A stretch of DNA of 64,000 nt from Calditrichia bacterium (lineage in GTDB: Bacteria; Calditrichota; Calditrichia; RBG-13-44-9; J075). Positions within the stretch are counted from its first letter, which is position 1. Every line of letters starts with the position of its first letter. This document shows, one piece after another, positions 4,775 through 24,118 of this stretch. The DNA lies in contig JANQQU010000036.1 of assembly GCA_028284905.1 (NCBI GenBank), forward strand, positions 62,001 to 126,000. The letters are read 5' to 3'. The translations under genes and the position numbers were made by a program. Below the pieces are notes generated by a model. That model made no database searches. It was not told the DNA's origin and saw only the letters and a program-made list of their open reading frames with translations.

Positions 4775-4807
4775 ATATGCCTCCAATGTGTTGGTTAAAA
4801 GGGTTGA

Positions 4808-6343: not shown

Positions 6344-6389
6344 TTTATATCCCAATGCTTTATTCTCACTGGTTTAATTTTTTAGCGGA

Positions 6390-7364
6390 TTAATCGAAGT
6401 TAAGCCCTAACGTGAAACGGTGGACGCCATCTAAAAATTCCCCATAGTCGTTAAAGGAATAATCGAAACGGTAATTTTGCAGATGGATGCCCATGCCCAA
6501 CGCCAGGCCTTCTTCATCATAATTGATTTTGTAACCGCCACGCAGAAAAACCATATCATTGAAACCGTATTCCATACCAACATTATATTGCTGGTCAAAA
6601 TCACGAGGCTGGACCATATCAAAAGCTACCAGCAGCTTATGATTTTCCGAAGTTCGAAACATGTTCTGATTCGGCGACATTAGATAAGCGGAAACACCAA
6701 TATTAAATGTTTGCGGCAAGGGGAATTTTTCCTCAACGAATTTTACTTCCGGACCAAACTGGCGCACGGTTGCGGAAATTTTCACTGAGCGGTAACCGGT
6801 GTCATAGACCAGACCACCGTCAAAAACCAGTGAAGAAGCGCTTTCTGCGACAAGATCTTCCCGGACAAACTTAGTGGTGAGCCCAAAGGAAAACTGATCG
6901 GTAACTGCCCGCGCCCAACTGACGCCGACCACAAAAGCACCGGGAGAAAAAGTATTGCCTGTCAAGCCGGGATTGTAAGTGCCATCGGCATTAAAGCCCA
7001 GCGCACTGACAGTCGTCTCTTCAATTTCACCGACATCCGTTAGCAGCACCTGTACGCCGAGAGTGCCCCAATGACCAGCGGAATAAGCAGCGGCAAAGGA
7101 AGAATGGCGAATATCAAAGAAATAATCCACGTAGCTAAATTCCGCATCAAAACGCTGCACGGTGGGCAATAGTCCAGGATTCCAAAACACTGCATCTGCA
7201 CCATAGGCGAGTGAGCTGTACGCCCCTCCCATCGCGGTAGAACGGGCACTCATCATCACTTTCAGAAATTGAAAAGATGTGGTGCCAACTTTCTCAAAAC
7301 CATAACTGACGGTAGAGAGAATAAGCAGTAATATCAGGGTAATTTTTTTAATGCTGGCGACCAT
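6390..7364 (-). CDS. PorV/PorQ family outer-membrane protein
   Basis: 324 residues with a signal peptide and the PorV/PorQ family opening: TSFQFLKVMMSARSTAMGGAY, then YGADAVFWNPGLL. It ends as a barrel (RFTLGLNFD). In Bacteroidota, PorV is an outer-membrane shuttle of the type IX secretion system that carries cargo bearing C-terminal sorting domains; related paralogs often sit beside cargo genes. Here four cargo-like genes (230, 3362, 7401 and 13516) are in the same cluster, so a dedicated cargo helper is a reasonable inference. The start has AAAGGAGA about 8 bases upstream. The spacing of 34-36 bp to both neighbours supports an operon. Confidence 0.8.
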   Translation of the reverse strand: MVASIKKITLILLLILSTVSYGFEKVGTTSFQFLKVMMSARSTAMGGAYSSLAYGADAVFWNPGLLPTVQRFDAEFSYVDYFFDIRHSSFAAAYSAGHWGTLGVQVLLTDVGEIEETTVSALGFNADGTYNPGLTGNTFSPGAFVVGVSWARAVTDQFSFGLTTKFVREDLVAESASSLVFDGGLVYDTGYRSVKISATVRQFGPEVKFVEEKFPLPQTFNIGVSAYLMSPNQNMFRTSENHKLLVAFDMVQPRDFDQQYNVGMEYGFNDMVFLRGGYKINYDEEGLALGMGIHLQNYRFDYSFNDYGEFLDGVHRFTLGLNFD

Positions 7365-7400: not shown

Positions 7401-9629
7401 TTATTTTATGACCACAAATTTTCCTGTGGTTTGTTCTCCTTCCGGAGTTGTAACCACATAAAAGTAGATACCAGAAGCAATTTCCTGGCGATTTCGGGTT
7501 ACCTGGAACCATGCCACGGAATAAATCGGTTGATCATGCTCTATGGTTTCCACCAATTGCCCGGCATAAGAAAAGATGCGAATAGTGCAACGGCTGGGCA
7601 GTCCGTAAAAACCGATCTGGCCGGTCGTTTCTCCGCCACCTTCAAAACCGGAATTTACCCGGAAAGGATTAGGCACGGCGTGTATAGCGCCAAAAGTTTC
7701 CACCGAACCGATATTCTTCTGAAACTCAATGATATTGGTTCGTCCGCTTTGATTGCCATTCACATCTACGGAAGTAACGGAGTAATAGCGGCGCTCACCC
7801 ACTTTAAAATCCGGGTCATCATCCAGAAACTCATAGACATTATCCCCATTCACCTCGCCTTTTGAGAGAGTGCCGATTTGCGTCCAGGGCCCCATACCCG
7901 CCAGGCTGCGATAGATCCGAAATTCGCTCAATTCTCCCATTAAACGCGGGTGGGTAAACTCTTCCAAATCCCGGGGCCAGATGAGGCGTACTTCTGCTTT
8001 CTCGGTGTTATCGATTTGATATTCCGGCGCCGGAAAGGGCACGGGAATTTTATAGCTGCCATCTCTCGGATTATCTTCCGGCCAAACCGGCAAGGTCGGT
8101 TCCTCACCCAGATAGGCCTGGAATGCCTTATGGGCCACTTGCTGCACGTTGACCACATCGGAATTGACATAATCCGGATAGCCGTAATCGGTTAGATAGT
8201 TCTCGGTCATTACTTCCCCATCCAGCACAATCCGTCGATCCAGGCTCGGTATATTCGACCATTGCGTTAAGGTCTGGCCGCCTTCAACCCGCTTGTTCGC
8301 CTGGCCACCGTATCCGACAACTTCGGCCAGGGCATATTCCAGTTTATCACCGTGCTCCAGGGTATAAGGACCAAAGACAATATGCTTCTGCCCGGCGTCG
8401 ACACTCTGGCGATAATTGTAGGAGGCGCGCCCCAACCAGCGGGCGGACGGCGGCTCCGGCCAGGTGGTGCTATTGGGAGCATAACGGCCACTCCAGCGCT
8501 TGTCCGGGTTAATCGATTCCACAGTCATTTTTGAACTACGCGTGTTACCGGTACTGACCTTATTAGACCAGGGCTGGAGAATATGAGAATTTTCGTCTAT
8601 TTCATAAAACTCATCATTAAAGGTTCTGAGAATATCGGCAGCCTCGGATTCATTCCGGCTCGGATCGTCTGGATCAACAATTGCCAGATGATTCACATCA
8701 TAATGCAGCATTGCGTAGCCGGGCGCCTGCGGGCTACATAAACCGCCGCCGTTTATGCCGGTTTCGGAAAAGAGGCGAAATAATTCTTTATTCGGCTCCG
8801 GTTTCCCCATCAATCCGCCATCACCGGAAGTACGGCGATCCATATTAAAGGTCAGCCAGTAATCGGCATCCCAAAAACCATTCTGATCGCCGCGATAAAT
8901 ACCACCGTCATATTTCCATTCCTGGTAATGCCGTTGATACCCGTACATCGAGGGGGCATGCCCATAGATAAACAAGGCCATAAAATCCCGGTATTGCGCC
9001 GTCTGCTCAATCGTTGACGGATCGCCGTCGGTATCGCCGGTATACTCCAGGGTGTATTCGTAAATAATCAGATCATCATAATCGGGATAGCTCCAGGCCC
9101 GGGAAACCCGGGTTATAGTGATGCCTAACGGTGTGGCCCATTTGGCAGTAATAATTTCTTCCGCTTCATCGGGATTGTAATCGGGGTTCAAACTACCATC
9201 CGGCAGCAAGGGGAAATTTTCCACTTCTTCGATAGAAATCGGAAAGCTCCAGAGACCGTTGGCCACTTCCGGATCACTGGCACCAACGCCACCACAGAGG
9301 GCATACAGGCGATTGCTTTTCCCGGGATTACCGGCAACATTCGCGGCAATATACATACCGGCGCCGAGCATATTGTGCTGCCCGCTGTACTGCAATCCTT
9401 CAACGACGGTGGCCGAACGCGAAGGCCATTCGAATACTGGTACGCTGGTGGCGTTTCCCTGCTGCCCGGTCTGCCAGGCACGGCCAATTTCGCCGGTATT
9501 AAACACTGTTTCATGTAACATTCCCCGATCGTGAATCCGAAAATCCCGAAAGGTCTGCGGAAAAGCCAGAGAGGAATAAACAAGAACGCTAACAGCTATT
9601 ATTTTGTAAAGTTTCGAGACTACACTCAT
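7401..9629 (-). CDS. Large secreted protein with sorting-like C-terminus
   Basis: 742 residues, family not recognised. Residues 1-24 are a signal peptide (ending LAFPQ). The middle is rich in Trp, Tyr, Gly and Asp, with a repeated theme of 'YDDLIIYEYTLEYTGD'. A fibronectin-III-like segment lies about residues 565-650 (AEVRLIWPRDLE ... YYSVTSVDVNGNQSG). The C-terminus is a divergent sorting domain (AVPNPFRVNSG ... ASGIYFYVVTT ... GKFVVIK). It follows the TonB-dependent receptor by 58 bp, where Bacteroidota would have SusD, but no SusD-like TPR pattern or lipobox is visible. It may be the surface-exposed partner of the receptor; that is inference from gene order only. Confidence 0.65.
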   Translation of the reverse strand: MSVVSKLYKIIAVSVLVYSSLAFPQTFRDFRIHDRGMLHETVFNTGEIGRAWQTGQQGNATSVPVFEWPSRSATVVEGLQYSGQHNMLGAGMYIAANVAGNPGKSNRLYALCGGVGASDPEVANGLWSFPISIEEVENFPLLPDGSLNPDYNPDEAEEIITAKWATPLGITITRVSRAWSYPDYDDLIIYEYTLEYTGDTDGDPSTIEQTAQYRDFMALFIYGHAPSMYGYQRHYQEWKYDGGIYRGDQNGFWDADYWLTFNMDRRTSGDGGLMGKPEPNKELFRLFSETGINGGGLCSPQAPGYAMLHYDVNHLAIVDPDDPSRNESEAADILRTFNDEFYEIDENSHILQPWSNKVSTGNTRSSKMTVESINPDKRWSGRYAPNSTTWPEPPSARWLGRASYNYRQSVDAGQKHIVFGPYTLEHGDKLEYALAEVVGYGGQANKRVEGGQTLTQWSNIPSLDRRIVLDGEVMTENYLTDYGYPDYVNSDVVNVQQVAHKAFQAYLGEEPTLPVWPEDNPRDGSYKIPVPFPAPEYQIDNTEKAEVRLIWPRDLEEFTHPRLMGELSEFRIYRSLAGMGPWTQIGTLSKGEVNGDNVYEFLDDDPDFKVGERRYYSVTSVDVNGNQSGRTNIIEFQKNIGSVETFGAIHAVPNPFRVNSGFEGGGETTGQIGFYGLPSRCTIRIFSYAGQLVETIEHDQPIYSVAWFQVTRNRQEIASGIYFYVVTTPEGEQTTGKFVVIK

Positions 9630-9687: not shown

Positions 9688-12513
9688 TTAAAATTTCAAA
9701 TACATACCCAACCGGTAATGGCGCGGTTGATTGTTCAGGAGATATACTTCCTGGCTGGTTACATAAGGTTCACGCAGGTTATAGGTGAGGATATTTTCCC
9801 GGTCATTATTCCAACGAACGGTATTGCGCTCATCATCGAATGTACGGGAGTAGTGAAACACCTGATTATTCAGCAAATTAAAGGCTTCTGCATAGAAATT
9901 AACTCGCTGACCATTCCATATAAATCCTTTTTCCAGACGCATTTTCCAGTCTTTTTCAAAGGGGGTACGCTGATTGAATTGCAACCCTTGACCGGTATCA
10001 TCAAAAGTATAGGGGCGGCCGCTCATGAGGCGTAACGTTGTGCTGAAATTGAGATTCGCCAGCGGACGAAATCCCATTAAATCAAATCCGTTATCGCGTG
10101 CGGTACGAAAGCGCAAATTGAACACAGTTTTATGGGTACGGTCAAAATTGAGGAAAACATCGCCAGGTGCCGGCAGTTGAAAAACCGGGTCACCATCACG
10201 TGTTTCGCTGAATTTCACCGGCACATCAAGGTCTGCCGGACGGTTGGCCGTGGCAGATTCATAGTTATAGCGAATGTAACCACGGAAAAAACCGTTTTGC
10301 TTTTCCAGACTGATATGAAATCCCTTAATATCCGCATATTCCCGGTTGACATAAGTCTGATACACATTCTGCTGGAAATCTTCAAAGAAGGCGTCCTGAA
10401 TCAAATTGGAAACATCTTTATAATAGGCACTGACATCCAACCGAACATCGTCCGTAATACCCTGAACAACACCAAGGTCGTAAGCATTGGTTTTTTCTGC
10501 TTCCAGTTGCGGATTCCCGAGGAAATCAATGTTTTCGCGAATATCAACCCGGTCAAAAAATATCTGGTTAAAACTGGGTCGCTGCATAAACGTCCCGTAA
10601 TTCAGACGAAAAACTGATTTTTCAGAAATCGGAAAAGAAATACCGACTCTCGGTTGGAAGATATATTCTATTTCCCGGTCTTGGACCGCATCCGGGTCAC
10701 GTAATGGTGCGTATTGATTGGTGAAATATTCGGTATTGAGATCATAAAAATCCATGCGCATACCGATATTGGCAATCATACCGGAAAATTCCATTTTATC
10801 CTGTATATAAAAAGCGCCCTCATATGGGAAGTTCCGGAATTTCACTTTCCGAAAGTTTCCAGCAGTGGAAAGCCCATTGTTCATGTCTACATTCAAATCA
10901 TAATAATTATACTGCAATCCGGCCTTGAGTAAATTAAAGCGATTTAGCTGACTGCTAAGGCTAATATCCGCACTAAAGCTGCTCACCCGCTCGTCCCCCC
11001 AATCATCTTCCGGGCGTCCGATGCGATGTTCGGAAGGGCTGGTGTAGTCTGTCCAGTTGGTTGCATTGGAATAAGTTTCCACATATTCCCCTTCTTCCAA
11101 CAACTCTACCCGCTGCTCGGTTAAGAGATCGAGCATTTTTAAACGAACATCCATAAAGGTTGACGGGCTGAACACATGGTTCCAACTAACGCCGTATTGT
11201 AACGAGGTGGTATTAATTTTGGCAACACTAAGGGTTTGGTCAAACATCCAGCGGAGCCATTGGCTACCAATATCATTTTCGTAGCCATTATCATACAAAA
11301 AGTCGAATTTGAATTTATTGGAAGCATTCATTCGATAGACAACATTACTGACAAACTGCCGTTCCAAATCCGGCTGTGGTGTGGGAATTACCGGTTGAAT
11401 AGTGCTTTGCCGGGTAGCGAAGAAAAGTGTGGCTTTTTTCGAAATCGGTCCACCGGTGGAAAAGTCCAGGCGGGTATCGATACTCTTGTCATAATCCCGG
11501 CCAACATCGCGGATAGCCTGCTGCCAGAGTAATTGTCCCAGGCGGGCCACTTGCAAAGAATCAGCGCGCGTCAAGGGATTTGGCGGCCAAACATTTCGCG
11601 GCGGCAAGTAGGTGGGGCCAAAGCTGAAGCTAACATCGAACAACGGTTTACCCGGGTCAACCGGATTTTCCTTCAGCCACTCATCTACAGAGCTCAGCAA
11701 GCCGAAATAGTCCAAATTTTCCGGATCGTAAACGCTGCCTTCCCAGGTTTTGTAATAGGGCAATGTACTACTCACTTCCAATCGGCTGGTCCAGGCCTGG
11801 CCTCCCTCACGGGTAACCATATTTACCACGCCGGACTGGGCATTGCCATATTCTGCGCTAAAACCACTGGTATATACCTCGATTTCCTGCAGTGCTGTGG
11901 TAATGGGTCGAAATGCCCGGCTTCTCGTTAGCGGGTTAACAATACTACTCCCCCCAACCAGATAAAGCGCTTCACCGGCACGGCCGCCGCGGAAATTTTC
12001 CCCAACGACATCGGCTTGCAAGGAGAGAATATCGCTAACATCACTAACACCCGCGATACTTTCGATGTCATCCAGTGAATAGCTTTGCTTGGTTGCCGTA
12101 ACATCTTTCTCAACCCCCAACGGGGCGTAGGCAGTTACTTCTACAGCGTCGGACTCAATCGTTTCCGAGGTCATTGCATAGTCTACCCGTGTGGTTCTAT
12201 CAACAACGACGCGTACTTTCTGGCGAACTTCCTCGCGAAAGCCGACATAGATTACCCGAACATCATAGAGACCGGGGCGTAGATTCAGAATGAAGTAAGT
12301 GCCATCGATATCGGTTGCTGCACCGGTAGGTGTTTCGAACTTTATTAGTCTATCGCCGCTCCACATTCCTTCCACAACGACATTAACGCCAACCAGCGCC
12401 TCTCCGGTAGCTTTATCAGTTACCTGCCCGGAAAGCTTGCCGGTTTCTCCGGCATAGATCATAAATACCGGCAACAAACTAAAAAATAGGATTCGCATAA
12501 ATTTCTTCATCAT
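9688..12513 (-). CDS. TonB-dependent receptor of the alginate cluster
   Basis: 941 residues. A signal peptide precedes a carboxypeptidase-regulatory-like domain (about 24-115: LSGQVTDKATGEALVGVNVVVEG). A plug follows (about 130-240), with IEVYTSGFSAEYGNAQSGVVNMVTREGG, and then a 22-strand-type barrel ending in LGMYLKF. This is the general SusC/receptor layout, though the protein is shorter than many SusC proteins. It would import alginate oligomers or another ligand across the outer membrane using TonB-ExbBD energy; those partners are not in the window. AGGAGG lies about 7 bases before the first ATG. No SusD gene follows. The 144-bp gap upstream has a LacI-like near-palindrome at its kduD end. 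Confidence 0.88.
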   Translation of the reverse strand: MMKKFMRILFFSLLPVFMIYAGETGKLSGQVTDKATGEALVGVNVVVEGMWSGDRLIKFETPTGAATDIDGTYFILNLRPGLYDVRVIYVGFREEVRQKVRVVVDRTTRVDYAMTSETIESDAVEVTAYAPLGVEKDVTATKQSYSLDDIESIAGVSDVSDILSLQADVVGENFRGGRAGEALYLVGGSSIVNPLTRSRAFRPITTALQEIEVYTSGFSAEYGNAQSGVVNMVTREGGQAWTSRLEVSSTLPYYKTWEGSVYDPENLDYFGLLSSVDEWLKENPVDPGKPLFDVSFSFGPTYLPPRNVWPPNPLTRADSLQVARLGQLLWQQAIRDVGRDYDKSIDTRLDFSTGGPISKKATLFFATRQSTIQPVIPTPQPDLERQFVSNVVYRMNASNKFKFDFLYDNGYENDIGSQWLRWMFDQTLSVAKINTTSLQYGVSWNHVFSPSTFMDVRLKMLDLLTEQRVELLEEGEYVETYSNATNWTDYTSPSEHRIGRPEDDWGDERVSSFSADISLSSQLNRFNLLKAGLQYNYYDLNVDMNNGLSTAGNFRKVKFRNFPYEGAFYIQDKMEFSGMIANIGMRMDFYDLNTEYFTNQYAPLRDPDAVQDREIEYIFQPRVGISFPISEKSVFRLNYGTFMQRPSFNQIFFDRVDIRENIDFLGNPQLEAEKTNAYDLGVVQGITDDVRLDVSAYYKDVSNLIQDAFFEDFQQNVYQTYVNREYADIKGFHISLEKQNGFFRGYIRYNYESATANRPADLDVPVKFSETRDGDPVFQLPAPGDVFLNFDRTHKTVFNLRFRTARDNGFDLMGFRPLANLNFSTTLRLMSGRPYTFDDTGQGLQFNQRTPFEKDWKMRLEKGFIWNGQRVNFYAEAFNLLNNQVFHYSRTFDDERNTVRWNNDRENILTYNLREPYVTSQEVYLLNNQPRHYRLGMYLKF

Positions 12514-12657: not shown

Positions 12658-13419
12658 TTAGCGCGCCATCCATCCGCCATCGACGGTTAACAAATGGCCG
12701 TTCACATAATCCGATGCGGGCGAGGCCAGAAAAACCACCGCCCCCTTCATGTCTTCAGGGTTTCCCCAACGATTAGCCGGAATACGGGCAGTAATCGCCT
12801 GATTGCGTTCCGGATTTTCCCGTAATGCCTGGGTGTTATCGGTAACCATATAGCCCGGGGCAATTGCATTTACACAAATGCCATGCTGCGCCCATTCGTT
12901 AGCCAGCGCTTTCGTGGTTTGCGCAACAGCCCCCTTACTGGCGGCATAAGAGGGCACGGTAATGCCGCCGGAAAAACTAAGCAGAGAAGCAATATTCACA
13001 ATTTTACCATACCCGCGTTTTAACATATCCCGCGCAACTGCCTGGGAGAGGAAAAAGACCGCTTTACTGTTTAAATCCATCACCGCGTCCCAGTCCGTTT
13101 CGGAGAAATCGATCGCCGGCGTGCGGCGAATGATCCCGGCATTATTGACCAGAATATCGACTTTACCAAAATGCGTCAGCGTCTCCTCGACAAACTGATT
13201 AATAGTCTCTAGCTTGGAAAGATCGCCATGCAGGGAAAGTGCTTTTCTGCCCAGGTCTCGTATTTGGTCCGCAACCGCTGTCCGTTCCCGATGATCAACC
13301 AGCACAATATCCGCGCCGGCTTCCGCCAATCCAAGACTCATCGCTGCCCCCAACCCGGTACTAGCGCCGGTGACCATTGCAACTTTTCCTGATAGGTCGA
13401 ACATTTTTGTCATTGTCAT
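12658..13419 (-). CDS. kduD: KduD-type 2-keto-3-deoxygluconate dehydrogenase (SDR)
   Basis: 253 residues, the usual KduD length. A classical short-chain dehydrogenase: TGASTGLG (residues 17-24), NNAG (92-95), Ser145, Tyr158 and Lys162, and a C-terminal VDGGWMAR that is typical of KduD. The family interconverts 3-deoxy-D-glycero-2,5-hexodiulosonate and 2-keto-3-deoxy-D-gluconate with NAD(H), in the cytoplasm. Here it would take the product of KduI encoded in the same cluster. An SD-like AGAGAAG precedes the ATG. It sits between two genes for outer-surface proteins, 96 bp after one and 144 bp before the other, far from kduI, which suggests the cluster was assembled piecewise. Confidence 0.88.
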   Translation of the reverse strand: MTMTKMFDLSGKVAMVTGASTGLGAAMSLGLAEAGADIVLVDHRERTAVADQIRDLGRKALSLHGDLSKLETINQFVEETLTHFGKVDILVNNAGIIRRTPAIDFSETDWDAVMDLNSKAVFFLSQAVARDMLKRGYGKIVNIASLLSFSGGITVPSYAASKGAVAQTTKALANEWAQHGICVNAIAPGYMVTDNTQALRENPERNQAITARIPANRWGNPEDMKGAVVFLASPASDYVNGHLLTVDGGWMAR

Positions 13420-13515: not shown

Positions 13516-16500
13516 TTACTTCATCAAAATCATTTTTTGGGTCTTGGTATACTCACTCGCTTCAAAACGGTAGATATAAATACCGGTAGCAACCGCTTTA
13601 CCGAGATCGTTCCGACCATCCCAAACGGCTTTGTAGTATCCCGGCTCGAAGCTGCCATTAATTAGTGTGCGCACTTTTTGGCCGAGAACGTTGTAGATAA
13701 CCAAGGTTGCTTCACTCAGGCGCGGAATCTGGAAATTCACCGTTGTGGTCGGGTTAAAAGGATTCGGATAATTTCGGCTAATATCAAAGACCTTCGGTAA
13801 CAGACCGCCATCCTCGATACCGGTGGCGAGCTTGAATACCGCGGTAACTGCCAGATCGCTATCCATTGTTAAGGTTTCCGGATTGGTATTCCCAGTCAGG
13901 GCGCCTTGCCATTCATAGAACATCCATCCGTCAACCGGTGTTGCTGTTAGGGTGACCACTGTGCCAGGGTCATAGGTTAATCCTACCGGAGGGGGATCCA
14001 GAAATACTGAACCGGAGTCGACAACCGTAACTGCCAGGGAAACGTGGGTCGGGGTATTCGTAGCCCAATTCAGGTCACCAATCGCTTCACCATCGGAACC
14101 CAGCTCATACAGATGAGAGGCAGGTAACAATGTGTAATTCAGGCTGTCCGGCGCTTCATATCGGGGATCGATACCATATACAAATTCCTCAACAACCGTG
14201 CCGCCCTTTGTTGCTTTAATATCAACAGCTTTAACATTAAAGGTGTCCACATGAGTAACAACGGTACCACTGCCCTGGGCATCCATAAGGTCGCCATCAC
14301 GGCCATGGCCGGAAGTGCGGCTGTTCGAAATAATAATATCCCGCACGACAGCCCCGCCGCTATTTTTCAGGAACATTACCCGGGTGGCGGAATTGTTAAT
14401 CGTCAGATGCTCAACGAATACCGGTGCATCTGCGGTAGCGGTATCCAGGTCGGAGTAATAGCGAATACATTCCGCGTCGATATTGGTGAAAGTGCTGTTG
14501 CGTACAATGAGTGTATCCAGTGCACGGTCGGTGTCAAACTTCTCGGTCTCGGAAATGCGGATGGCTTCGTATCCGAAATTGGTAAAAGTACAGTTTTCGA
14601 TATGCACGGTTCCCGCAACAAAATCCTTGTCAAATCTCAGTCCATGACCGTCTGCCAGCGGATTCTTTCCTTCATAAAAGTCTTTGAAATCGGTATCGAG
14701 AATGGTGATATTCGTACCGTTTTTCACGGAATCCGAGCCGGTGTAATGGCGTAAGCGAATGCCATATTTCATGCCCTGGCTTTCCGGATGACCACCATCC
14801 ATCACTACGCCGCGTAAGTAGAAATCATCGAAGACCCGGAAGATGTCCAGGTTTGATCCTTCCACATCGCTGTTGGTAATAATCGGTTTTTCTGCCAGGC
14901 CATTTGCAGCAACGATTGCTATCGGCCGGAGAACGGTGACATCGGAAGGATTCGTGGAAGTATAAAGCCCACCGCTGGTCATCAGACGAATGGTATCGAC
15001 CATAGTATTGTTATTGGCAAACTGCAGGGCATCGCGCAAGTCCCAGCTATCATCAATTTCCAGGACATTATTCGGTACTGAAATTTCCTGGAAAACCGCG
15101 GTGACATTTACATCACTGTTCATCGTTACCGAGGCCGGATTCGTGTTACCGGTTAAATCGCCCTGCCACTCGAGGAATTCCCAACCAAGATCAGCTTCCG
15201 CGGTTAACATCACCACCGCGCTACTGTCGTAGGTGCCTAAAATTGGTTCCGGATCGAGCGCCACGCCGCCGCTACCGACGGTATCAACATCCAGCGTGAA
15301 CTGGGTGAAAACACTTGCGAAAGAAGCAGTGACATTCATATTGGAATCTACTGCAACCGTGGTTGGATTGTCGGTGCCGGTCACATCACCCAGCCATTCG
15401 ACAAATTCCCAGTCCGGGCGGGGATTGGCAGTCATCGTTACCATGGTGCCCTGGTCGTAGGTGCCGTTGAACGGTTCCGGATCGAGGGTCACAAATCCCA
15501 ATCCCAGTGTATCCACGGTTAAGGTGACCTGCGGAGAAGCACTGACAAAAAGGGCAGTGATGGTTTCATCGGAATTCATAGTAATCGTAATCGGATTCGC
15601 ACTGGGCGGGAAGACATTACCAACCCACTCATCGAAAAGCCAGCCGGGATCCGGCACGGCGGTAAGCTCTACTTGAGTACCGGGTTCATAGATGCCACCA
15701 GGAGGATCTAAAGTAACCAGGCCGTTACCGGTGGTAAGCACCGTCAGATAATAAGATGAGGGTAGTGCTTCCCAGCGTAAGTCGCCCATTGCTCTGCCAT
15801 CGTCCGCTGCACCGCGGACCGGGGAAGTCGCGCTGAGGCGATAGTCATCGTTGGCCGGATTGTTATATTCCGGATCAACGCCAAGCATGCCCGCACCAAC
15901 GGCTGCGGAACCATTCAGGCTAAAGTTGCCGATACTGAATGTATCGGTATAAGAAATTGTCGAGGTGCCATAAAGGGCAACTGCGGTACTTTGGGTGCCG
16001 CCCTGATTGGTAATAATGCTATTCTTGATCTCAACATCAGTAACATCTCGGGGATAGATCACCCGCTTGTTTTCCGCATAACTGATCGAATCGAACGTAC
16101 AGTGATTGATCCGCACTACCGGGTTTGTAAACTCAATATAAAGCGCTTCCCGGCCAATTTTCGTAAAAGTACAGTTGGTCAATTCCAACGAACCGATTTC
16201 CGGGCCACCGGCGGAAGAGCTTTCCCGTAATAGCACACCTTCTTTGGCGGACTCGTCCAAAATACAATTGCGAAGAATTACCGAATCTGCCTTGGTATTG
16301 GCATGCGCTTTTACAATCGCTTCCGTGAAGTAGCGCATATCGCAGTCTTCGATCTTCAATTGAAAACGAATAGAATCTGCCACCACGTTAATATCCTGAG
16401 AGCGAACGGCATTTTTCGCATGGGCGCCGCCGCCGTCTTCCATGCGGCCATCAAGATACAACCCTTTTAGGTACAGTTCGCCGCCAGCCTGAATTTCGAA

Positions 16501-17778
16501 GAGGCGGGCACTGCTGGTGCCGGGATTGGTATTCCGAATCACCGGCTTTTGTGCCAATCCGTCCCGGGCGCGAATGGTTAATTTTTTATTAATGATGGTT
16601 TTGTCTGTGCTGGACACCGTATAGTGACCACCGCTTGTTACCAGCTCAAGAATGTCGCCATCAGCAGCAGCATCGGCAGCAGCTTGTAAAACACCATCGC
16701 CAGCTTCTACCGGGTGAACCACCGGATCGTTAATGGTTGGATCCCAGCGTAAATCGCCCATTGCTTTCCCATCATCCGCCGCGCCGATTACCTGAGAAGC
16801 GAGATCCAGAGTGTAATCGTCATTGGCCGGATCGATATAGAGCGGATCTACACCTAGCATGCCCGCACCTACTGAGGCAGAGCCATTCAGACTAAAGCCG
16901 GCAATGTTCAATGTATCGGTGTAAGAAATAGTCGAGGTACCATAAAGGGCAACGGCTGTGCTTTGGGTACCACCTTGATTGGTAATAATACTGTTTTTGA
17001 TCTCAACATCCGTAACATCTTTCGGGTAGATCGCCCGCTTGTTTTCCGCATAGCTGATCGAGTCGAAAGTACAGTGATTAATCCGTACCACTGGATCGCT
17101 AAATTCAATATAAAGCGCTTCCCGGCCGATTTTCGTAAAAGTACAGTTGGTCATTTCCAGGGAACCGATTACCGGACCACCGGCGGAAGAGCTTTCCCGC
17201 AGCAATACGCCTTCGCGCGGAGTTTCGTCCAAAATACAATTACGGAGAATCACCGAATCTGCTTTGGTATTGGCGTGCGCCTTTACAATTGCTTCGGTAA
17301 AGTAGCGCATTTCGCAGTCTTCGATTTTCAACTGAAAACGAATTGAATCCGCTACCACATTGATATCGCGGGAACGAACAGCGTTTTTTGCATGGGCAGC
17401 GCCGCCGTCTGTCATACGGCCATCGAGAAACAAACCCTGCAACACCAGTTCACCACCGGCCTGTATTTCAAACAGACGAGCACTGCTGGTGCCGGGGTTA
17501 GTATTACGAATAATCGGCGCTTCCGCTAAACCGTCCTGAGCACGAATGGTAATTTTCTTCGTTATCGCAATTTTATCCGTTGTAGAAACTTCATAAATCC
17601 CACCGCTATCGACGAGCTCCAGAATATCTCCGTCAACTGCGGCATCGTGTGCCGCCTGGATGGTGCCATCGCCGGCGTTTACCGCGATCACGGTCTGCGC
17701 CTGCGCGATATTAAATATTGATACGCAGCAAAAAATCAGCGCGATCAAAAATCGATTGATCGTAGCCGGATTTGTCAT
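13516..17778 (-). CDS. Giant secreted triple beta-helix protein, InlB repeats
   Basis: 1420 residues; no enzyme family is assigned with confidence. Order: signal peptide (1-28); beta-helix A (about 29-345); beta-helix B (about 353-670), a near copy of A offset by 324 residues; three InlB-B-like beta-grasp repeats (about 676-895; pattern 'LDPxxGxYxxGTxVxLTA...W.F.EW.G'); beta-helix C (about 900-1240), paralogous to the protein at 3362-4774; a fourth InlB-like repeat (about 1240-1310); and a Por sorting domain (YPNPFNPTTT, final KMILMK). The helices resemble DUF4957/DUF5123-like domains of alginate loci and lack PL6 catalytic blocks. A cell-surface alginate binder or an unrecognised lyase are both possible. 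AGGAGG precedes the ATG. It sits directly behind the TRAP transporter genes (68 bp). Confidence 0.8.
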   Translation of the reverse strand: MTNPATINRFLIALIFCCVSIFNIAQAQTVIAVNAGDGTIQAAHDAAVDGDILELVDSGGIYEVSTTDKIAITKKITIRAQDGLAEAPIIRNTNPGTSSARLFEIQAGGELVLQGLFLDGRMTDGGAAHAKNAVRSRDINVVADSIRFQLKIEDCEMRYFTEAIVKAHANTKADSVILRNCILDETPREGVLLRESSSAGGPVIGSLEMTNCTFTKIGREALYIEFSDPVVRINHCTFDSISYAENKRAIYPKDVTDVEIKNSIITNQGGTQSTAVALYGTSTISYTDTLNIAGFSLNGSASVGAGMLGVDPLYIDPANDDYTLDLASQVIGAADDGKAMGDLRWDPTINDPVVHPVEAGDGVLQAAADAAADGDILELVTSGGHYTVSSTDKTIINKKLTIRARDGLAQKPVIRNTNPGTSSARLFEIQAGGELYLKGLYLDGRMEDGGGAHAKNAVRSQDINVVADSIRFQLKIEDCDMRYFTEAIVKAHANTKADSVILRNCILDESAKEGVLLRESSSAGGPEIGSLELTNCTFTKIGREALYIEFTNPVVRINHCTFDSISYAENKRVIYPRDVTDVEIKNSIITNQGGTQSTAVALYGTSTISYTDTFSIGNFSLNGSAAVGAGMLGVDPEYNNPANDDYRLSATSPVRGAADDGRAMGDLRWEALPSSYYLTVLTTGNGLVTLDPPGGIYEPGTQVELTAVPDPGWLFDEWVGNVFPPSANPITITMNSDETITALFVSASPQVTLTVDTLGLGFVTLDPEPFNGTYDQGTMVTMTANPRPDWEFVEWLGDVTGTDNPTTVAVDSNMNVTASFASVFTQFTLDVDTVGSGGVALDPEPILGTYDSSAVVMLTAEADLGWEFLEWQGDLTGNTNPASVTMNSDVNVTAVFQEISVPNNVLEIDDSWDLRDALQFANNNTMVDTIRLMTSGGLYTSTNPSDVTVLRPIAIVAANGLAEKPIITNSDVEGSNLDIFRVFDDFYLRGVVMDGGHPESQGMKYGIRLRHYTGSDSVKNGTNITILDTDFKDFYEGKNPLADGHGLRFDKDFVAGTVHIENCTFTNFGYEAIRISETEKFDTDRALDTLIVRNSTFTNIDAECIRYYSDLDTATADAPVFVEHLTINNSATRVMFLKNSGGAVVRDIIISNSRTSGHGRDGDLMDAQGSGTVVTHVDTFNVKAVDIKATKGGTVVEEFVYGIDPRYEAPDSLNYTLLPASHLYELGSDGEAIGDLNWATNTPTHVSLAVTVVDSGSVFLDPPPVGLTYDPGTVVTLTATPVDGWMFYEWQGALTGNTNPETLTMDSDLAVTAVFKLATGIEDGGLLPKVFDISRNYPNPFNPTTTVNFQIPRLSEATLVIYNVLGQKVRTLINGSFEPGYYKAVWDGRNDLGKAVATGIYIYRFEASEYTKTQKMILMK

Positions 17779-17846: not shown

Positions 17847-19142
17847 TTAGAAACCAAACCAGCGCGGCGCCATCAAGGTGATTTCCGGGAAATAAGTAAT
17901 TAGAAATAGTGCGACCAGCATCGCGACATACATCGGCAGTAAAGGCTTGACGATTTCCGTCAGAGATACCTTTGCGACACCGCACCCCACAAACAAAACA
18001 GTACCGACCGGTGGAGTGCACAGGCCGATGCACAAGTTGAGGACCATCATAATGCCAAAGTGCAAGGGATCGACACCTAATGAGGCTGCTACCGGCAAGA
18101 AAACCGGGGTAAAGATGAGAATCGCCGGGGTCATATCCATAAATGTGCCGACCATTAACAGCACCAAATTCATAATCAGCAGGATGACGATTTTATTCTC
18201 GCTAAAAGCCAGCAATGAGGCGGTAATATTCTGGGGAATATTTTCGAATGAAAGCACCCAGGAGAGCGCCATTGAAGTGCCGATCAGCAGCATCACTACA
18301 GCGGTTGTAGTGGCGGAATCGAGGAGAATCTTCTTCAAATCCCCGACTTTCACTTCACGATAAACCAGCATCGAGAGAATCAAGGCATAAACGACAGCAA
18401 TCGCTGCTGCTTCCGTCGCGGTAAAAATACCGGCGACAATCCCGCCGATGACGATAAATATTAAAGAAAGGCTGAGCAGTGCGTCAAAGAATCGTTTTCC
18501 TGCTTCAACAAGGGTAACCCGTTCAGTACTGCCATAACCGGATCTTTTCGCAACAATCCCGGCCACCGCCATCAGAGATAAGCCGACGAGAATGCCCGGC
18601 AGGTATCCGGCGACAAACAACGCACCAATCGACACGCCGCCGCTCGCCAGAGAATAAATAATCAGGACATTACTGGGGGGAATGATCAATCCGGTCGTTG
18701 CGGAAGAGACATTTACCGCAGCACTGAAAGCCGGATCGTAGCCATTTTCCACCATACGGGGATGCATAAAAGAACCGATCGCTGCTGCCGACGCAATCGC
18801 CGAACCGGAGATCGCCCCAAAAAGCATTGCGGAAATAATGTTCACGAAAGCCAATCCGCCGGGCAAGGCGCCAACGACCGCTTTTGCAAATTCGATTAAC
18901 CTTCGCGCCAATCCTCCCCGCGCCATCAGGTTCCCGGAAAGAATAAAGAATGGGATGGCCAGCAGAGTAAAAGAATCCAATCCGGTTGCGACTCGCTGCG
19001 CCACAGTACTGGCTGCCGGGGCAAAATCCATATTCACCAGCATGGTTAAGGCCGTTGCCAGACCGATACAGTAACCGATCGGCACATTCAGAAATAGTAA
19101 TACCACAAAGCTGATTAATAATACCGAAACATCTAGCGCCAT
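17847..19142 (-). CDS. dctM: TRAP transporter large membrane subunit DctM
   Basis: 431 residues with about 12 hydrophobic segments. Family hallmarks include PFFILSGNLMARGG, FGAISGSAIASAAAIGSFMHPRM, GLIIPPSNVLIIYS, TEAAAIAVVYAL and NLCIGLCTPPVGTVLFVGC. DctM is the ion-coupled channel subunit of tripartite ATP-independent periplasmic transporters, driven by a sodium gradient. The substrate is set by the DctP protein encoded upstream; context suggests unsaturated or 4-deoxy uronates from alginate. AAGGAGA precedes the ATG, and the gene starts 9 bp after dctQ. Confidence 0.95.
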   Translation of the reverse strand: MALDVSVLLISFVVLLFLNVPIGYCIGLATALTMLVNMDFAPAASTVAQRVATGLDSFTLLAIPFFILSGNLMARGGLARRLIEFAKAVVGALPGGLAFVNIISAMLFGAISGSAIASAAAIGSFMHPRMVENGYDPAFSAAVNVSSATTGLIIPPSNVLIIYSLASGGVSIGALFVAGYLPGILVGLSLMAVAGIVAKRSGYGSTERVTLVEAGKRFFDALLSLSLIFIVIGGIVAGIFTATEAAAIAVVYALILSMLVYREVKVGDLKKILLDSATTTAVVMLLIGTSMALSWVLSFENIPQNITASLLAFSENKIVILLIMNLVLLMVGTFMDMTPAILIFTPVFLPVAASLGVDPLHFGIMMVLNLCIGLCTPPVGTVLFVGCGVAKVSLTEIVKPLLPMYVAMLVALFLITYFPEITLMAPRWFGF

Positions 19143-19151
19143 AAATTCTCC

Positions 19152-19661
19152 TTATTCCCCTGTTGCGGTATGTGAATAGTTGTCAGTTTGAAGTTCATCC
19201 TTGGGATGAAGCAGGGCATAAATGGAATAGTAGACCATCAACAATCCGCTCAGCGGAATAACCAGGTAGACGTACCCCACCGGCACTTTGAACGCCGCGG
19301 ACAGCTGCTCCAGGTAAAGCGTAACATAAACCAACCGGATGCCTCCGTAGATAAAGACAATGACCGAAAAAGCGATGATCGCGAAATGAATGATCATTTG
19401 AGATGTCCGTTCCGCTCCGCCGGTAAGGTTGCGGGTCAGGACGTCGATACCGAGGTGCGCTTTCAAGCGCAAGGCATAAGCCGCCCCGAGCAGACTAATC
19501 CAGATCAGCAGATAGGTGGCCAACTCCTCGGTGTAAGAACTGGGACTGTTCAAGAGGTAGCGAGTAGTGACTTGCCAGGTAACGACAACGACCATAACTG
19601 CCATCAGCCATACCAGAGATTGCACTAACATTTTGTCAATCAACGCGGTAATTTTTTTCAT
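19152..19661 (-). CDS. dctQ: TRAP transporter small membrane subunit DctQ
   Basis: 169 residues with four membrane segments. The DctQ signature is visible in WQVTTRYLLNSPSSYTEELATYLLIWISLLGAAYALRLKAHLGID, shown here over residues about 29-73. It pairs with DctM to form the membrane part of the TRAP transporter. The start overlaps the dctP stop by four bases (ATGA), with GGAGGAGA just upstream inside dctP, which implies translational coupling. Confidence 0.93.
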   Translation of the reverse strand: MKKITALIDKMLVQSLVWLMAVMVVVVTWQVTTRYLLNSPSSYTEELATYLLIWISLLGAAYALRLKAHLGIDVLTRNLTGGAERTSQMIIHFAIIAFSVIVFIYGGIRLVYVTLYLEQLSAAFKVPVGYVYLVIPLSGLLMVYYSIYALLHPKDELQTDNYSHTATGE

Positions 19662-20716
19662 TGAACATCTCCTCCGCTTTCAAGGGAATCCGGAACGGTC
19701 GTTTCCGGCGGTAAATTTCGAATACGCGCCGCCAATTCACCCAGGCTACTGCCCTCTAGATCATCATAGATCGGTTGTACGCTCTCAAAGAAAGGCGCTT
19801 TTTCCGGGCGAATCACTGTTACACCGGCCTCTTCCACGGCAGCAATAGATTTGGCAGTCATTTCTTCCCATAATTGCCGTTGAAATACCACTGACCTCGC
19901 AACCGCTTCACTCACCCACTCTTTCTCGGTGTCGCTCAACTTATTCCAGGAATGACTGCTCATTACCAGCACATCCGGCGGGGCGGAGTGTTCATCCAAT
20001 ACCAGGTAGTCGCAGAGTTCGTAAAATTTATTCTGGTAAAAATTGGGGGGATTATTTTCCGCGCCGTCCACCACGCCTTGCTGCAGGGCGGAGTATAACT
20101 CTCCCCAGGCCAGCGGAGTAGCGTTGCCACCGAGCAAATTGATTGTGCGGATCTGCAGATTACTGCGCATTACCCGGATTTTCAGACCATTCAAATCCTC
20201 CGGGACATTCACTTCATTCTTTCGTAAGAAAAAACTGCGGAAACCGGCATCGTAGTAACAAAGGCCATGCAGCCAGTATTTTTCACCCTTCAACAGCAGC
20301 TCTTTACCAATTTCACCGTTAAATACCTGCCAGTAATGATCGGCATCGCGAAAGAGATAGGGTAAACTGAACACACCCATTTCCGGCACAAAATTTTCGA
20401 CAACCGCGGAAGAGACTTTCGCAATATCCAGGGAGCCCAACTGAAGCAATTCGAGCGATTCCCGCTCGTTACCCAATTGACCGCCGGAGTAAATTTCCAC
20501 TTTCATCTTTCCGCCGGAAAGCGCCACCAGCTGCTCACGAAAATGTTCCATCCCTTTGTGTACCGGTGAGTTGGTATCCAGGACATGGGCCAGCCGCAGC
20601 GTATGAGAGTTGCTACTTTGTTCGCATCCCGCCAGCATCCCAATCAAAATGAGACAAATAATAATGCCGCTACATTTTTGCAATTGATCACCTGAAAGTT
20701 GAGTCATAAATTTCAT
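19658..20716 (-). CDS. dctP: TRAP transporter solute-binding lipoprotein DctP
   Basis: 352 residues with a lipoprotein signal (LIGMLAGC), so it is probably tethered in the periplasm. The DctP family fold is shown by LRLAHVLDTNSPVHKG near the N-terminus, GGQLGNERESLELLQLGSLDI, and the ligand-site block LKIRVMRSNLQIRTINLLGG, which contains the arginine that usually grips the substrate carboxylate, followed by GVVDGAENNPPNFY. Homologs of this type bind uronates and related sugar acids. In this cluster, 4-deoxy uronates from alginate are the likely ligand (inference). It starts 3 bp after kdgF with no strong Shine-Dalgarno; another ATG three codons further in is possible. Confidence 0.92.
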   Translation of the reverse strand: MKFMTQLSGDQLQKCSGIIICLILIGMLAGCEQSSNSHTLRLAHVLDTNSPVHKGMEHFREQLVALSGGKMKVEIYSGGQLGNERESLELLQLGSLDIAKVSSAVVENFVPEMGVFSLPYLFRDADHYWQVFNGEIGKELLLKGEKYWLHGLCYYDAGFRSFFLRKNEVNVPEDLNGLKIRVMRSNLQIRTINLLGGNATPLAWGELYSALQQGVVDGAENNPPNFYQNKFYELCDYLVLDEHSAPPDVLVMSSHSWNKLSDTEKEWVSEAVARSVVFQRQLWEEMTAKSIAAVEEAGVTVIRPEKAPFFESVQPIYDDLEGSSLGELAARIRNLPPETTVPDSLESGGDVQ

Positions 20717-21128: not shown

Positions 21129-21884
21129 CTAAATGAAGTACAATCCACTGTTAATTTCTATCGATTCGCCGTTGATGTAATCGGAATGATCACTGGCCAA
21201 AAACAGTATGGTATTGGCAACATCTTCCGGAGTGCCTTCCCGTTCGGAGAGGGTAACCGCGGCTGTATTCTTCCGTGCCTGATCCGGGGTAAACGTATCA
21301 TGAAAAGTTGTATTGATCAGTCCGGGTGAGACGCAATTCACTCGTATCTTTCTTCCCTTCAGCTCCTTCGCTAATCCCCGGGAAAAAGTTAGCACACCGC
21401 CCTTCGCAGTCGCATAAGCAACGGCGCCCCCGCCCCCACCATTGCGGGCTGCCAGGGATGACAGATTAACAATCGCCCCACCATCGGCCATGTGTGGGAT
21501 AAAAGCCTTACTGACCAGCATAACACTGGTAAGATTCAGGCGGATGACTTTTTCCCAAAAGGATTCTTCCATTTCGATAATGTTCTTTCTGGCAACCAGG
21601 CCTCCGGCATTATTAACCAATACATGAACGCTTTCTCCGAATGCCTTATTGGTATCTGCAACCAGGCGATCAATATCGTCCGTTTTGGTAACATCTGCCT
21701 GGATAGCGACGCCTCGCCCACCAGCGGCTTCTATCATGGAAACCGTTTCCTGCGCAGAATCGCTACTGGCGAGATAGTTTACAACCACTTTCATCCCGTA
21801 CTCAGCGAGTTTCAGGCAAGTGGCCCGCCCGATATCACGCCCGCCGCCGGTTACAACGGCTACTTTTCCTTGCAAATTTTTCAT
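21129..21884 (-). CDS. SDR oxidoreductase, probable DEH reductase
   Basis: 251 residues. Classical SDR: TGGGRDIG (about 12-19), NNAGG (91-95), Ser143 region, Tyr157 and Lys161, and a C-terminal INSGLYFI. It is distinct from KduD at 12658. In alginate clusters an SDR beside KdgF and PL17 commonly reduces 4-deoxy-L-erythro-5-hexoseulose uronate (DEH) to 2-keto-3-deoxy-D-gluconate, and this gene sits exactly there, 35 bp after PL17 and 70 bp before kdgF. Assignment to that reaction rests on context; the sequence alone shows only an SDR. GAGGTG precedes the ATG. Confidence 0.75.
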   Translation of the reverse strand: MKNLQGKVAVVTGGGRDIGRATCLKLAEYGMKVVVNYLASSDSAQETVSMIEAAGGRGVAIQADVTKTDDIDRLVADTNKAFGESVHVLVNNAGGLVARKNIIEMEESFWEKVIRLNLTSVMLVSKAFIPHMADGGAIVNLSSLAARNGGGGGAVAYATAKGGVLTFSRGLAKELKGRKIRVNCVSPGLINTTFHDTFTPDQARKNTAAVTLSEREGTPEDVANTILFLASDHSDYINGESIEINSGLYFI

Positions 21885-21919: not shown

Positions 21920-24118
21920 TCAATTCAATTTTTCAATCGCGTAATTGCCTTGCCAGCGGTAGGTTTTTCCTTCGAAACTAACTGTTTTCTCGCCGCTGGT
22001 TGGCGCCCCGTTGTTGACCATAATGCGCCAATGCAATCCACGCTTGCCGCGAATATCAACGACACTGCCTTCATCATCATGCCCGATCACTTCTACGGAG
22101 GTAATCACACTGCGGGCATCGCGGGACATTTCCCGGGCCTCGCTAAAAAAGCCATGAGGTTCGATCACCGAAGCGAAAAGATGATCGGCAGCGCGAAGCC
22201 GCAACATCATCATAGGCCCCGAGCGCAAATTGAAATCCGGGTCGTTCGCGCCAATCCGTCCCAAAAGCATTTCCGTTCCCGCTGTGCCGGCGCTAATCAG
22301 GCTGTAATATCTGCCGCCATCTACCCAGGTAAAAATGATTGTGCTGTCGCTTTTCCCGGCAGCGGTTTTCCAGAGATGCTCGTAACCGGCTTTTTCCCCC
22401 ATTGGGCGCAAGCTGTTCCCGGCGACATCAAAAGCAACATTACTGACAACAAACTGACCGTTGTAATAGATCGGGTAATCGTATTGATGCTCGCTATCGC
22501 TCTGCAAACGGTAGAGGTCGATCACTGCCGGGTGCTCCAGCTTCTCATCCCTTATCAAAAACATGGTTCGCTGCATCGCCACGCCTTCATATTGCTGATT
22601 GGCGCGAGCGCTCATCACCTGGATGTCGCTACCATTGCCATCAAAGAAGTGGCGTTCCGCCCAGTGGGCATCGCCTTTTTTCCGATTGGCGTTGTTTTGG
22701 GAAGTTTCGTCTACAACAACAACATTGTGGGCAACGGTTTGCTTGGCAAAACTGTTATTTTCCCGGGTGTAACGGCCGCCGTGCTTCGGCTCCATATTGA
22801 TCCAGCGGGCAAAACCGTAATCGGGAATCACTTCATGATATTGATCGTAGAAAATGAATTGCAGTTTATCGAAGTGGCCGTGCCCTTTTCCATGCACGCC
22901 ATATTTCATCAGAAGCATCGTTTGTGATTTGCCGCTGCCGGTGCGTAAAATTCCCAGGCCGCCCCGCTCTCCGTCATAACCATCGGAGAATTCCACGCTG
23001 CCCCAGTTCAATTCCGCTACTGTGCTGCCATCTCCGAAATCGTTTGCGATCGTTAAGCCGGCCTGGTTGAGCATAACTCTATCCTGCAGCCGGGCGATCG
23101 CCAGCAGGTTCTCGTTCTTCCCATATCGCTGATAGGTGAGGTTATTGGCAATCATCGGGCCGATATCGGCGATATCCATTGTTTTCGAAGCATCATTAAT
23201 CGGGGGAAAAATACCATCGGGAAAAATCGTTTGCGCCACAGAGTAATAGGCTTTTCTCAGGATTTCATCCCGATACTGATAAATCTTCCGCTCCGGTTCA
23301 TTTCGCTCAATGGCATCAGCAAAAAGGAAAAACGGACGTAACGCATAACGGATATAATATGGCCCTTCCATATAAAAACCATCGGGGGAAAAGAGCTGTT
23401 CCATCTGCTTTAAGAATCCACCTTTTCCATCTAAATTGGTGCCATAAAGCGCTCTTTCGACCAACTCTGGTTCATCCAATACATAGGCCATCATACCCAC
23501 AGCAGCAGTCGACCAGGTGCCATGATTATGAATCAGGTTAAACATTTCCGCATGTTCCACGGAAAAGAGGTGAATCATCGGTCTGAAAATACTTTCTTCG
23601 TAGCGCTGGCGATCTTCCGCGTTCAACCAATTATAGATGCAATCATACGCGATGGAAACGTGCACCAGCCAAACCGCTTCATTCAAAGTTTGATGAAACA
23701 GCCTTCCCGGTTTTTGTTTGAAAGAACGTGGGTGCGGGCCCAGAGTGGGATACATCTTTGCGTATTCGTCCAGCATGGCTTTAATAAACGCAGCGTATAT
23801 TTCCTCGCCATTAATGGCGAAGAGGATACCGGCCTGGTGCATTTCCCGGTAATTTTGCTTGTGTTTTTCATGCGCGTATCCGCCGGCCTCTCCCGGTGGC
23901 GGTACTTCGATTACCCGTTGCAGGGCAGCATTCACGAATGTTTCATAGGCGGCATAAGACTTATCCAGTAAGGGATATTTTCCTAACGCCTCGCGAATAG
24001 CCCTTGCTTCAGATTTATTGATGGCAATCGTCGGATGCTCTTTGGCAAACGTCGCCGTCAAGAGAACGCTTAATAAAAGAATCAGAATTTTCTGAAAAAC
24101 ATTCACGGAATAACCCAC
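21920..24118 (-). CDS. PL17 oligoalginate lyase (heparinase II/III fold)
   Basis: 732 residues. A signal peptide (about 1-25) is followed by an (alpha/alpha) toroid with the catalytic pair in LIHNHGTW (N198, H199) and Tyr255 in EGPYYIRY. A heparinase II/III-like beta domain follows, with a plausible zinc site at His415 (GHGHFDKL), Asp433 (IPDYGF) and His464 (TVAHN). This matches PL17 exolytic lyases, which release unsaturated monouronates from alginate oligomers, here probably in the periplasm. The start is uncertain: GTG at 24118 or GTG at 24106, neither with a clear Shine-Dalgarno; coupling to kduI, which ends 21 bp upstream, is likely. Confidence 0.9.
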   Translation of the reverse strand: MGYSVNVFQKILILLLSVLLTATFAKEHPTIAINKSEARAIREALGKYPLLDKSYAAYETFVNAALQRVIEVPPPGEAGGYAHEKHKQNYREMHQAGILFAINGEEIYAAFIKAMLDEYAKMYPTLGPHPRSFKQKPGRLFHQTLNEAVWLVHVSIAYDCIYNWLNAEDRQRYEESIFRPMIHLFSVEHAEMFNLIHNHGTWSTAAVGMMAYVLDEPELVERALYGTNLDGKGGFLKQMEQLFSPDGFYMEGPYYIRYALRPFFLFADAIERNEPERKIYQYRDEILRKAYYSVAQTIFPDGIFPPINDASKTMDIADIGPMIANNLTYQRYGKNENLLAIARLQDRVMLNQAGLTIANDFGDGSTVAELNWGSVEFSDGYDGERGGLGILRTGSGKSQTMLLMKYGVHGKGHGHFDKLQFIFYDQYHEVIPDYGFARWINMEPKHGGRYTRENNSFAKQTVAHNVVVVDETSQNNANRKKGDAHWAERHFFDGNGSDIQVMSARANQQYEGVAMQRTMFLIRDEKLEHPAVIDLYRLQSDSEHQYDYPIYYNGQFVVSNVAFDVAGNSLRPMGEKAGYEHLWKTAAGKSDSTIIFTWVDGGRYYSLISAGTAGTEMLLGRIGANDPDFNLRSGPMMMLRLRAADHLFASVIEPHGFFSEAREMSRDARSVITSVEVIGHDDEGSVVDIRGKRGLHWRIMVNNGAPTSGEKTVSFEGKTYRWQGNYAIEKLN

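Follow-up and report, generated by a model that had tools for sequence, protein, structure and literature searches.

Two-domain alginate lyases of polysaccharide lyase family 6 (PL6) carry, behind their catalytic β-helix, a C-terminal β-helix domain whose contribution has been described in several ways. In AlyGC it partly covers the active site (PMC6879350), and a review credits it with helping to fix the substrate and to shape the pocket, adding that the isolated C-terminal domain of BcAlyPL6 has weak alginate lyase activity (PMC8618178); elsewhere its role is called unknown (PMC11381880) or the domain inactive (PMC13377030). Here we describe a 1420-residue protein, encoded in a 64,000-nucleotide stretch of a Calditrichota genome (the window), that bears three copies of this domain detached from the catalytic helix, together with InlB-B-like repeats and a sorting domain of the type IX secretion system (T9SS), within an alginate cluster. 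The detached, triplicated, T9SS-tailed arrangement is new, as are the finding that several phyla have conserved it and the uptake cassette around it; no description of the arrangement was found in the literature searched, from which most subscription journals are missing.

The closest described gene clusters are the alginate loci of Bacteroides and marine Bacteroidetes (PMC11381880, PMC12472053), which have PL6 and PL17 lyases, regulators and enzymes of the 4-deoxy-L-erythro-5-hexoseulose uronate pathway in common with the present one but rely on SusC/SusD, whereas here a TonB-dependent receptor is accompanied by a 742-residue T9SS-type protein, PorV-like and FadL-like proteins and helix proteins. 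In proposed role, the 1420-residue protein can be likened to Sus-type surface glycan-binding proteins such as BT4112 for homogalacturonan (PMC8002723), in that an acidic polysaccharide would be held beside a TonB receptor; it differs from them in its T9SS tail for export and in a locus that shows no SusD among its mapped genes. Two of its helices pass the Pfam threshold of DUF5123 (PF17161), which like DUF4957 (PF16318) is a family without assigned function and is tied here to the PL6 C-terminal domain; the literature searched, again short of most subscription journals, held nothing on topic for either family.

Three detached copies of the PL6 C-terminal domain

The gene is an intact open reading frame with an ATG start. 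Coordinates are positions within the window and residue numbers refer to the 1420-residue protein unless stated otherwise. Its product contains two tandem helices (D1 and D2), a block of InlB-B-like repeats, a third helix (D3), a further repeat and a sorting tail (Table 1). DUF5123 is matched twice by Pfam, in D1 and D2 (85.3 bits for the protein, cut-off 35.1), next to a match to Beta_helix; four stretches match Flg_new_2, the divergent InlB-B family (153 bits), and FlgD_ig (PF13860) scores 32.9 bits. The tail matches TIGR04183 in NCBIfam at 34.8 bits against a cut-off of 23, and the T9SS component SprA is encoded in the same genome (591 bits), from which we predict that the protein is T9SS cargo, exported and anchored at the cell surface. 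AlphaFold2 models, built with alignments drawn from related loci, show the helices in D3 (mean predicted local distance difference test score (pLDDT) 94.4, predicted template-modelling score (pTM) 0.93) and in D1D2 (mean pLDDT 88.3), where a pTM of 0.57 leaves the mutual placing of D1 and D2 uncertain. The three β-helices, InlB-B-like repeats and surface sorting domain that the original prediction had read from the sequence are thus all borne out.

With the whole protein as query, phmmer gave no matches in the PDB, and profiles were therefore used. A profile built from the window's five helices, namely D1, D2, D3, the helix of a stand-alone single-helix protein (SA) and the C-terminal helix of the PL6 lyase, matched only the C-terminal halves of PL6 lyases: 7dmk at residues 430–744 (2e-31), 7o77/7o7t, 8bwk and 5gkd at residues 442–650 (1e-12)/5gkq. 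Taken alone, the D1D2 profile found 7dmk 431–744 (3e-35) plus the same PDB set, and the D3-lineage profile found 7dmk 439–744 (1.5e-16). Foldseek placed 7dmk, 7o7t and 5gkd at the top for both models. The D3 model aligned with 7dmk at a TMq of 0.78 (E 4e-12), as against about 0.2 for single-domain PL6 entries, which comprise the catalytic helix alone; for D1D2, two-domain PL6 structures again came first, with low template-modelling scores, the placing of the two helices being different or uncertain.

Because sequence profiles and structural comparison agree, D1, D2 and D3 belong to the family of the PL6 C-terminal domain, a known and structurally solved domain type, sharing its fold and showing sequence homology across the whole domain with BcAlyPL6 (7DMK), Patl3640 (7O77/7O7T), AlyGC (5GKD) and 8BWK. 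They depart from those enzymes in that they do not stand behind a PL6 catalytic helix: their chain has none, and holds three copies with InlB-like spacers and a T9SS tail instead. A chance likeness among β-helices was rejected, as profile E-values and Foldseek concur. PL31 and PL39 were not among the sequence-profile matches or the best 50 Foldseek matches, no direct pairwise comparison with them having been made. In BLAST, D1 and D2 are 84% identical to each other and 37–38% identical to the C-terminal helix of the PL6 lyase encoded in the window, and D3 is 52% identical to SA and about 25% identical to the other helices. On the profile and Foldseek matches, the notion that the helices represent an unplaced fold must be given up, and the lyase of the same window bears a recognizable copy. 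Their likeness to DUF4957/DUF5123, by contrast, stands for D1 and D2 and is weaker for D3, which by itself has no DUF5123 match at E ≤ 0.01 and matches solely Beta_helix, at 21 bits and below that family's cut-off; among related proteins, DUF5123 is found at E ≤ 0.01 in all 12 D1D2 tandems and in 30 of 32 D3-lineage members.

The catalytic domain of PL6 and chondroitinase B (PF14592) shares the right-handed parallel β-helix class with these domains, but the 1420-residue protein has no PF14592 match in Pfam at E ≤ 1, and BLAST aligns none of its helices significantly with the catalytic helix of the PL6 lyase in the window. The signatures NKSG, RHG and NGGET, all present in that lyase, are missing here, as are the Lys/Arg pair (with His) and the Asn/Glu/Glu Ca2+ ligands of PL6, residue roles for which we rely on PMC6879350 and PMC12028748. 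In the lyase the catalytic helix spans residues 34–394 of its own numbering, with N203, E235, E237, K242, R263 and H264 all in place. The absence of the catalytic block, noted at the outset, was thereby confirmed, and although a profile search did place the helices in a known lyase family, it did so through the C-terminal helix and without intact catalytic residues. A degenerate PL6 enzyme was rejected as an explanation, the helices grouping with the C-terminal and not the catalytic domain. In another PL6 enzyme, MhAly6, a 'GH28 domain' at 550–696 occupies the expected place of the C-terminal helix (PMC12028748) and may be a misnamed PL6 C-terminal domain.

Within D3 and SA, conservation was judged over 32 sequences. 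In these, R1074 and K1080 never vary, whereas E1071, E1079, E1103, R1106, Y1108, D1110, D1117, R1133, K1138 and Q1168 vary little or not at all; K1004 and R1008 are also near-invariant and are matched by counterparts in D1/D2 as well as in most PL6-fused helices. The conserved charged residues lie mostly on or beside successive strands of one β-sheet, a modest enrichment (9 of 50 positions on the strand sheet versus 14 of 170), and may form a pocket, which we predict as a possible working site.

Conservation across phyla beside alginate lyases

Searched against its own genome, the whole protein matches 180 places, mostly InlB repeats and T9SS tails, and single helices were for this reason used in later searches. 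In related loci gathered by a genome scan and whole-genome searches, and counting architectures whole or cut by contig ends, the D1–D2–InlB–D3–InlB–T9SS layout is shared by about 18 distinct loci, their taxonomic labels being Calditrichota, KSB1, Ignavibacteriota/Bacteroidetes and Neomarinimicrobiota. The exceptions are a third helix of D1/D2 type (L054), a missing fourth repeat (L014) and a split gene (L020). In 17 of these loci the fetched stretch includes a PL6 or PL17 gene, the remaining contig being 7 kb long. Most share the order TonB receptor, 742-residue protein, PorV-like, FadL-like, SA, (triple helix) and PL6, with no SusD among the mapped genes. Among 40 Calditrichota genomes, helices of the D3/SA type score above 100 bits in six, exactly the six that have a strong PL6 (p 2.6e-7, relatedness ignored). 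The 742-residue protein is full-length at more than 800 bits in the same six; copies in the five other than the window's genome are 54–68% identical to it, and one further copy (G039) reaches 39%.

D3 is the most conserved helix across loci (52–68% identity, against 33–63% for D1/D2), and the three-repeat InlB-B-like block retains 47–61% identity among related proteins. In a tree of 78 helices, read without a root, D3 and SA form one clade and D1/D2 another, with the PL6-fused helices as a third group; D1 and D2 of one protein are closest to each other in several loci, among them the window. For the window pair, dN is 0.115 and dS 1.28, and the dN/dS of about 0.09 indicates that both helices are under constraint. 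This ratio and the within-protein kinship look like concerted evolution under constraint, with repeated independent duplication as the alternative. A recent or assembly-made duplication was rejected on the same values and on the presence of the tandem in related proteins.

Three further observations concern the related loci. A 1091-residue protein (L080, 250–3522) has three helices of the PL6-fused type, with DUF4957 and DUF5123 matched three times each, and a T9SS tail, without InlB repeats; it is a separate triplication of the PL6 C-terminal-type domain. In one Neomarinimicrobiota genome (L020/L060, L061) the triple-helix gene falls into two pieces, of which one, the beginning of a D1/D2-type helix, lies beside SA and the other 1.6 Mb away beside PL6, through recombination or misassembly between duplicated helices. 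The helices on a contig labelled Caldisericaceae (L015, L056) are identical to their counterparts in a Calditrichota genome (G002), and the label of the contig is probably wrong.

The alginate cluster

From the GntR-type regulator (25829) to PL6 (230), all genes lie on the minus strand in the order GntR, KduI, PL17-type lyase, short-chain dehydrogenase/reductase (SDR), TRAP DctPQM, triple-helix protein, KduD, TonB-dependent receptor, 742-residue protein, PorV/PorQ-family protein, FadL-like protein, SA and two-domain PL6 (Table 1). The triple-helix gene is separated by 68 bp from dctM and by 96 bp from kduD, and the alginate setting first proposed for it is borne out. The proteins scanned in the locus include no SusD, and the single SusD_RagB match of the genome sits on another contig. 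The 742-residue protein, which has no Pfam domain bar a weak tail match and no PDB match, possibly replaces SusD as the partner of the TonB receptor. The cluster extends past window base 1 (L052 10926–14203, contig C1), where a lyase-like T9SS protein of PF14099 and another PL6, this one with a single domain, are encoded.

Table 1 Features of the triple-helix gene and its cluster
Feature	Coordinates	Strand	Residues or remarks	Basis
Triple β-helix surface protein	13516..17778	−	1420 residues	Open reading frame and translation, domain matches
Sec signal peptide	17698..17778	−	~1–27, MTNPATINRFLIALIFCCVSIFNIAQA	Read by eye from sequence
Helix D1	16723..17694	−	29–352; PL6 C-terminal-domain family, DUF5123 subtype	Pfam, BLAST, AlphaFold2, profile
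Helix D2	15769..16722	−	353–670	Pfam, BLAST, AlphaFold2, profile
Three InlB-B-like (Flg_new_2) repeats	15079..15768	−	671–900	Pfam
Helix D3	14044..15078	−	901–1245; second lineage	BLAST, tree, AlphaFold2, Foldseek, profile
Fourth InlB-B-like repeat	13804..14031	−	~1250–1325	Pfam, sequence
T9SS type A/FlgD_ig C-terminal sorting domain	13516..13776	−	1335–1420	TIGR04183, PF13860
Two-domain PL6 lyase with T9SS tail	230..2962	−		PF14592 371.8 bits; PDB matches cover both domains
C-terminal helix of the PL6 lyase	545..1501	−	DUF4957 and DUF5123	Pfam, BLAST
SA, stand-alone single-helix T9SS protein	3362..4786	−	474 residues; D3 lineage	Pfam, NCBIfam, BLAST, tree
FadL/OMPP1-like outer membrane protein	4808..6355	−		PF03349 56.6 bits
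PorV/PorQ-family outer membrane protein	6390..7364	−		NF033709 186 bits
742-residue T9SS-type protein	7401..9629	−		Weak tail match only
TonB-dependent receptor	9688..12513	−	CarboxypepD_reg domain	Pfam, NCBIfam
KduD	12658..13419	−		TIGR01832 371 bits
TRAP transporter DctM, DctQ, DctP	17847..20716	−		Pfam, NCBIfam
SDR oxidoreductase	21129..21884	−	DehR-like by setting, substrate inferred	Library matches
PL17-type oligoalginate lyase	21920..24118	−		PF05426 and PF07940; NF042990 647 bits, below cut-off
KduI	24140..24976	−		NF002091 409 bits
GntR/FadR-type regulator	25092..25829	−		Library matches

A putative alginate-capture protein

We consider it likely that the 1420-residue protein is a T9SS-exported, cell-surface alginate-capture protein, its three detached helices having been recruited from the PL6 C-terminal domain. 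As that domain borders the active site in PL6 enzymes and helps to hold the substrate there, the detached helices may have kept its contact with alginate and bind alginate chains. The T9SS tail would bring the protein to the outer surface, where the InlB-like repeats would act as spacers and the three helices would hold alginate close to the PL6 lyase and the TonB receptor; the protein would thus fill the role of SusD and the surface glycan-binding proteins of Bacteroides loci, and the products would go on through PL17, the TRAP transporter and KduI/KduD. The recurrence of the same design in several phyla makes a dedicated role in holding alginate at the cell surface probable. Of the 'alginate-binding scaffold' envisaged by the original prediction, an alginate-binding surface protein is accordingly the part that we retain as the best reading of the sequence; a scaffold of the cellulosome type finds no support, as no docking modules were seen. 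Several points weigh against a capture role. The protein is acidic (net charge −84 overall, −18 for D1 and −23 for D3), and an acidic protein without Ca2+ is not an obvious binder of a polyanion, an objection tempered by the likewise acidic catalytic helix of the window's PL6 (net −10). In BcAlyPL6, the reported substrate affinity resides mainly in the N-terminal domain (PMC8618178). Finally, D1 and D2 are less conserved than D3, and the helices may therefore not all do the same job.

The conserved residues of D3 bear on an alternative in which the D3/SA lineage, and perhaps D1/D2 too, is an alginate or polyuronate lyase that uses a non-PL6 active site on the same β-helix fold. We regard this as unlikely, yet keep it in view because of the weak activity reported for the isolated BcAlyPL6 domain (PMC8618178), a domain that others call inactive (PMC13377030), and because of the invariant Lys and Arg of D3. 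The alignment of many near-invariant residues along one sheet and the strength of D3 conservation across phyla also speak for it, whereas the lack of any known catalytic signature, the missing PL6 Ca2+ and Lys/Arg motifs and the modest enrichment behind a pocket that is itself a prediction speak against it. Its boldest form, in which D3/SA, with invariant Lys1080 and near-invariant Arg1106 and Glu1071, would have arisen from the PL6 'accessory' domain as a new family of active polyuronate lyases and the surface protein would be a tandem enzyme, seems to us more doubtful still.

Alternatively, the protein might be a partner of PL6 that provides in trans what the C-terminal domain of two-domain enzymes provides in cis, a lid or a dimer surface. 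That domain does shape the active site in AlyGC and BcAlyPL6 (PMC6879350, PMC8618178), and in four loci (L009, L012, L021, L022) a triple-helix protein is present next to a PL6 lyase that has InlB repeats in place of the C-terminal helix. In the window and many other loci, however, the lyase retains its own C-terminal helix beside the triple-helix protein, so that substitution is not the general rule, and we find such a partnership distinctly improbable. The protein could also be an adhesin or stalk of general use at the surface, without any specific bearing on alginate, since adhesins commonly combine β-helices with InlB-type repeats and a T9SS tail, and its repeats and tail recur at many places in the genome; the strict company of alginate genes over several phyla and the derivation of all three helices from a lyase-associated domain family make this very improbable.

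The present findings give the families DUF4957 and DUF5123 a concrete link to alginate. The loci compared here outline a conserved alginate-uptake cassette in little-studied phyla, one with no SusD among its mapped genes. Separated from its enzyme and present in three copies, a helper domain of alginate lyases has in these loci been retained across several phyla beside the lyases themselves, and its role can thereby be tested on isolated domains.

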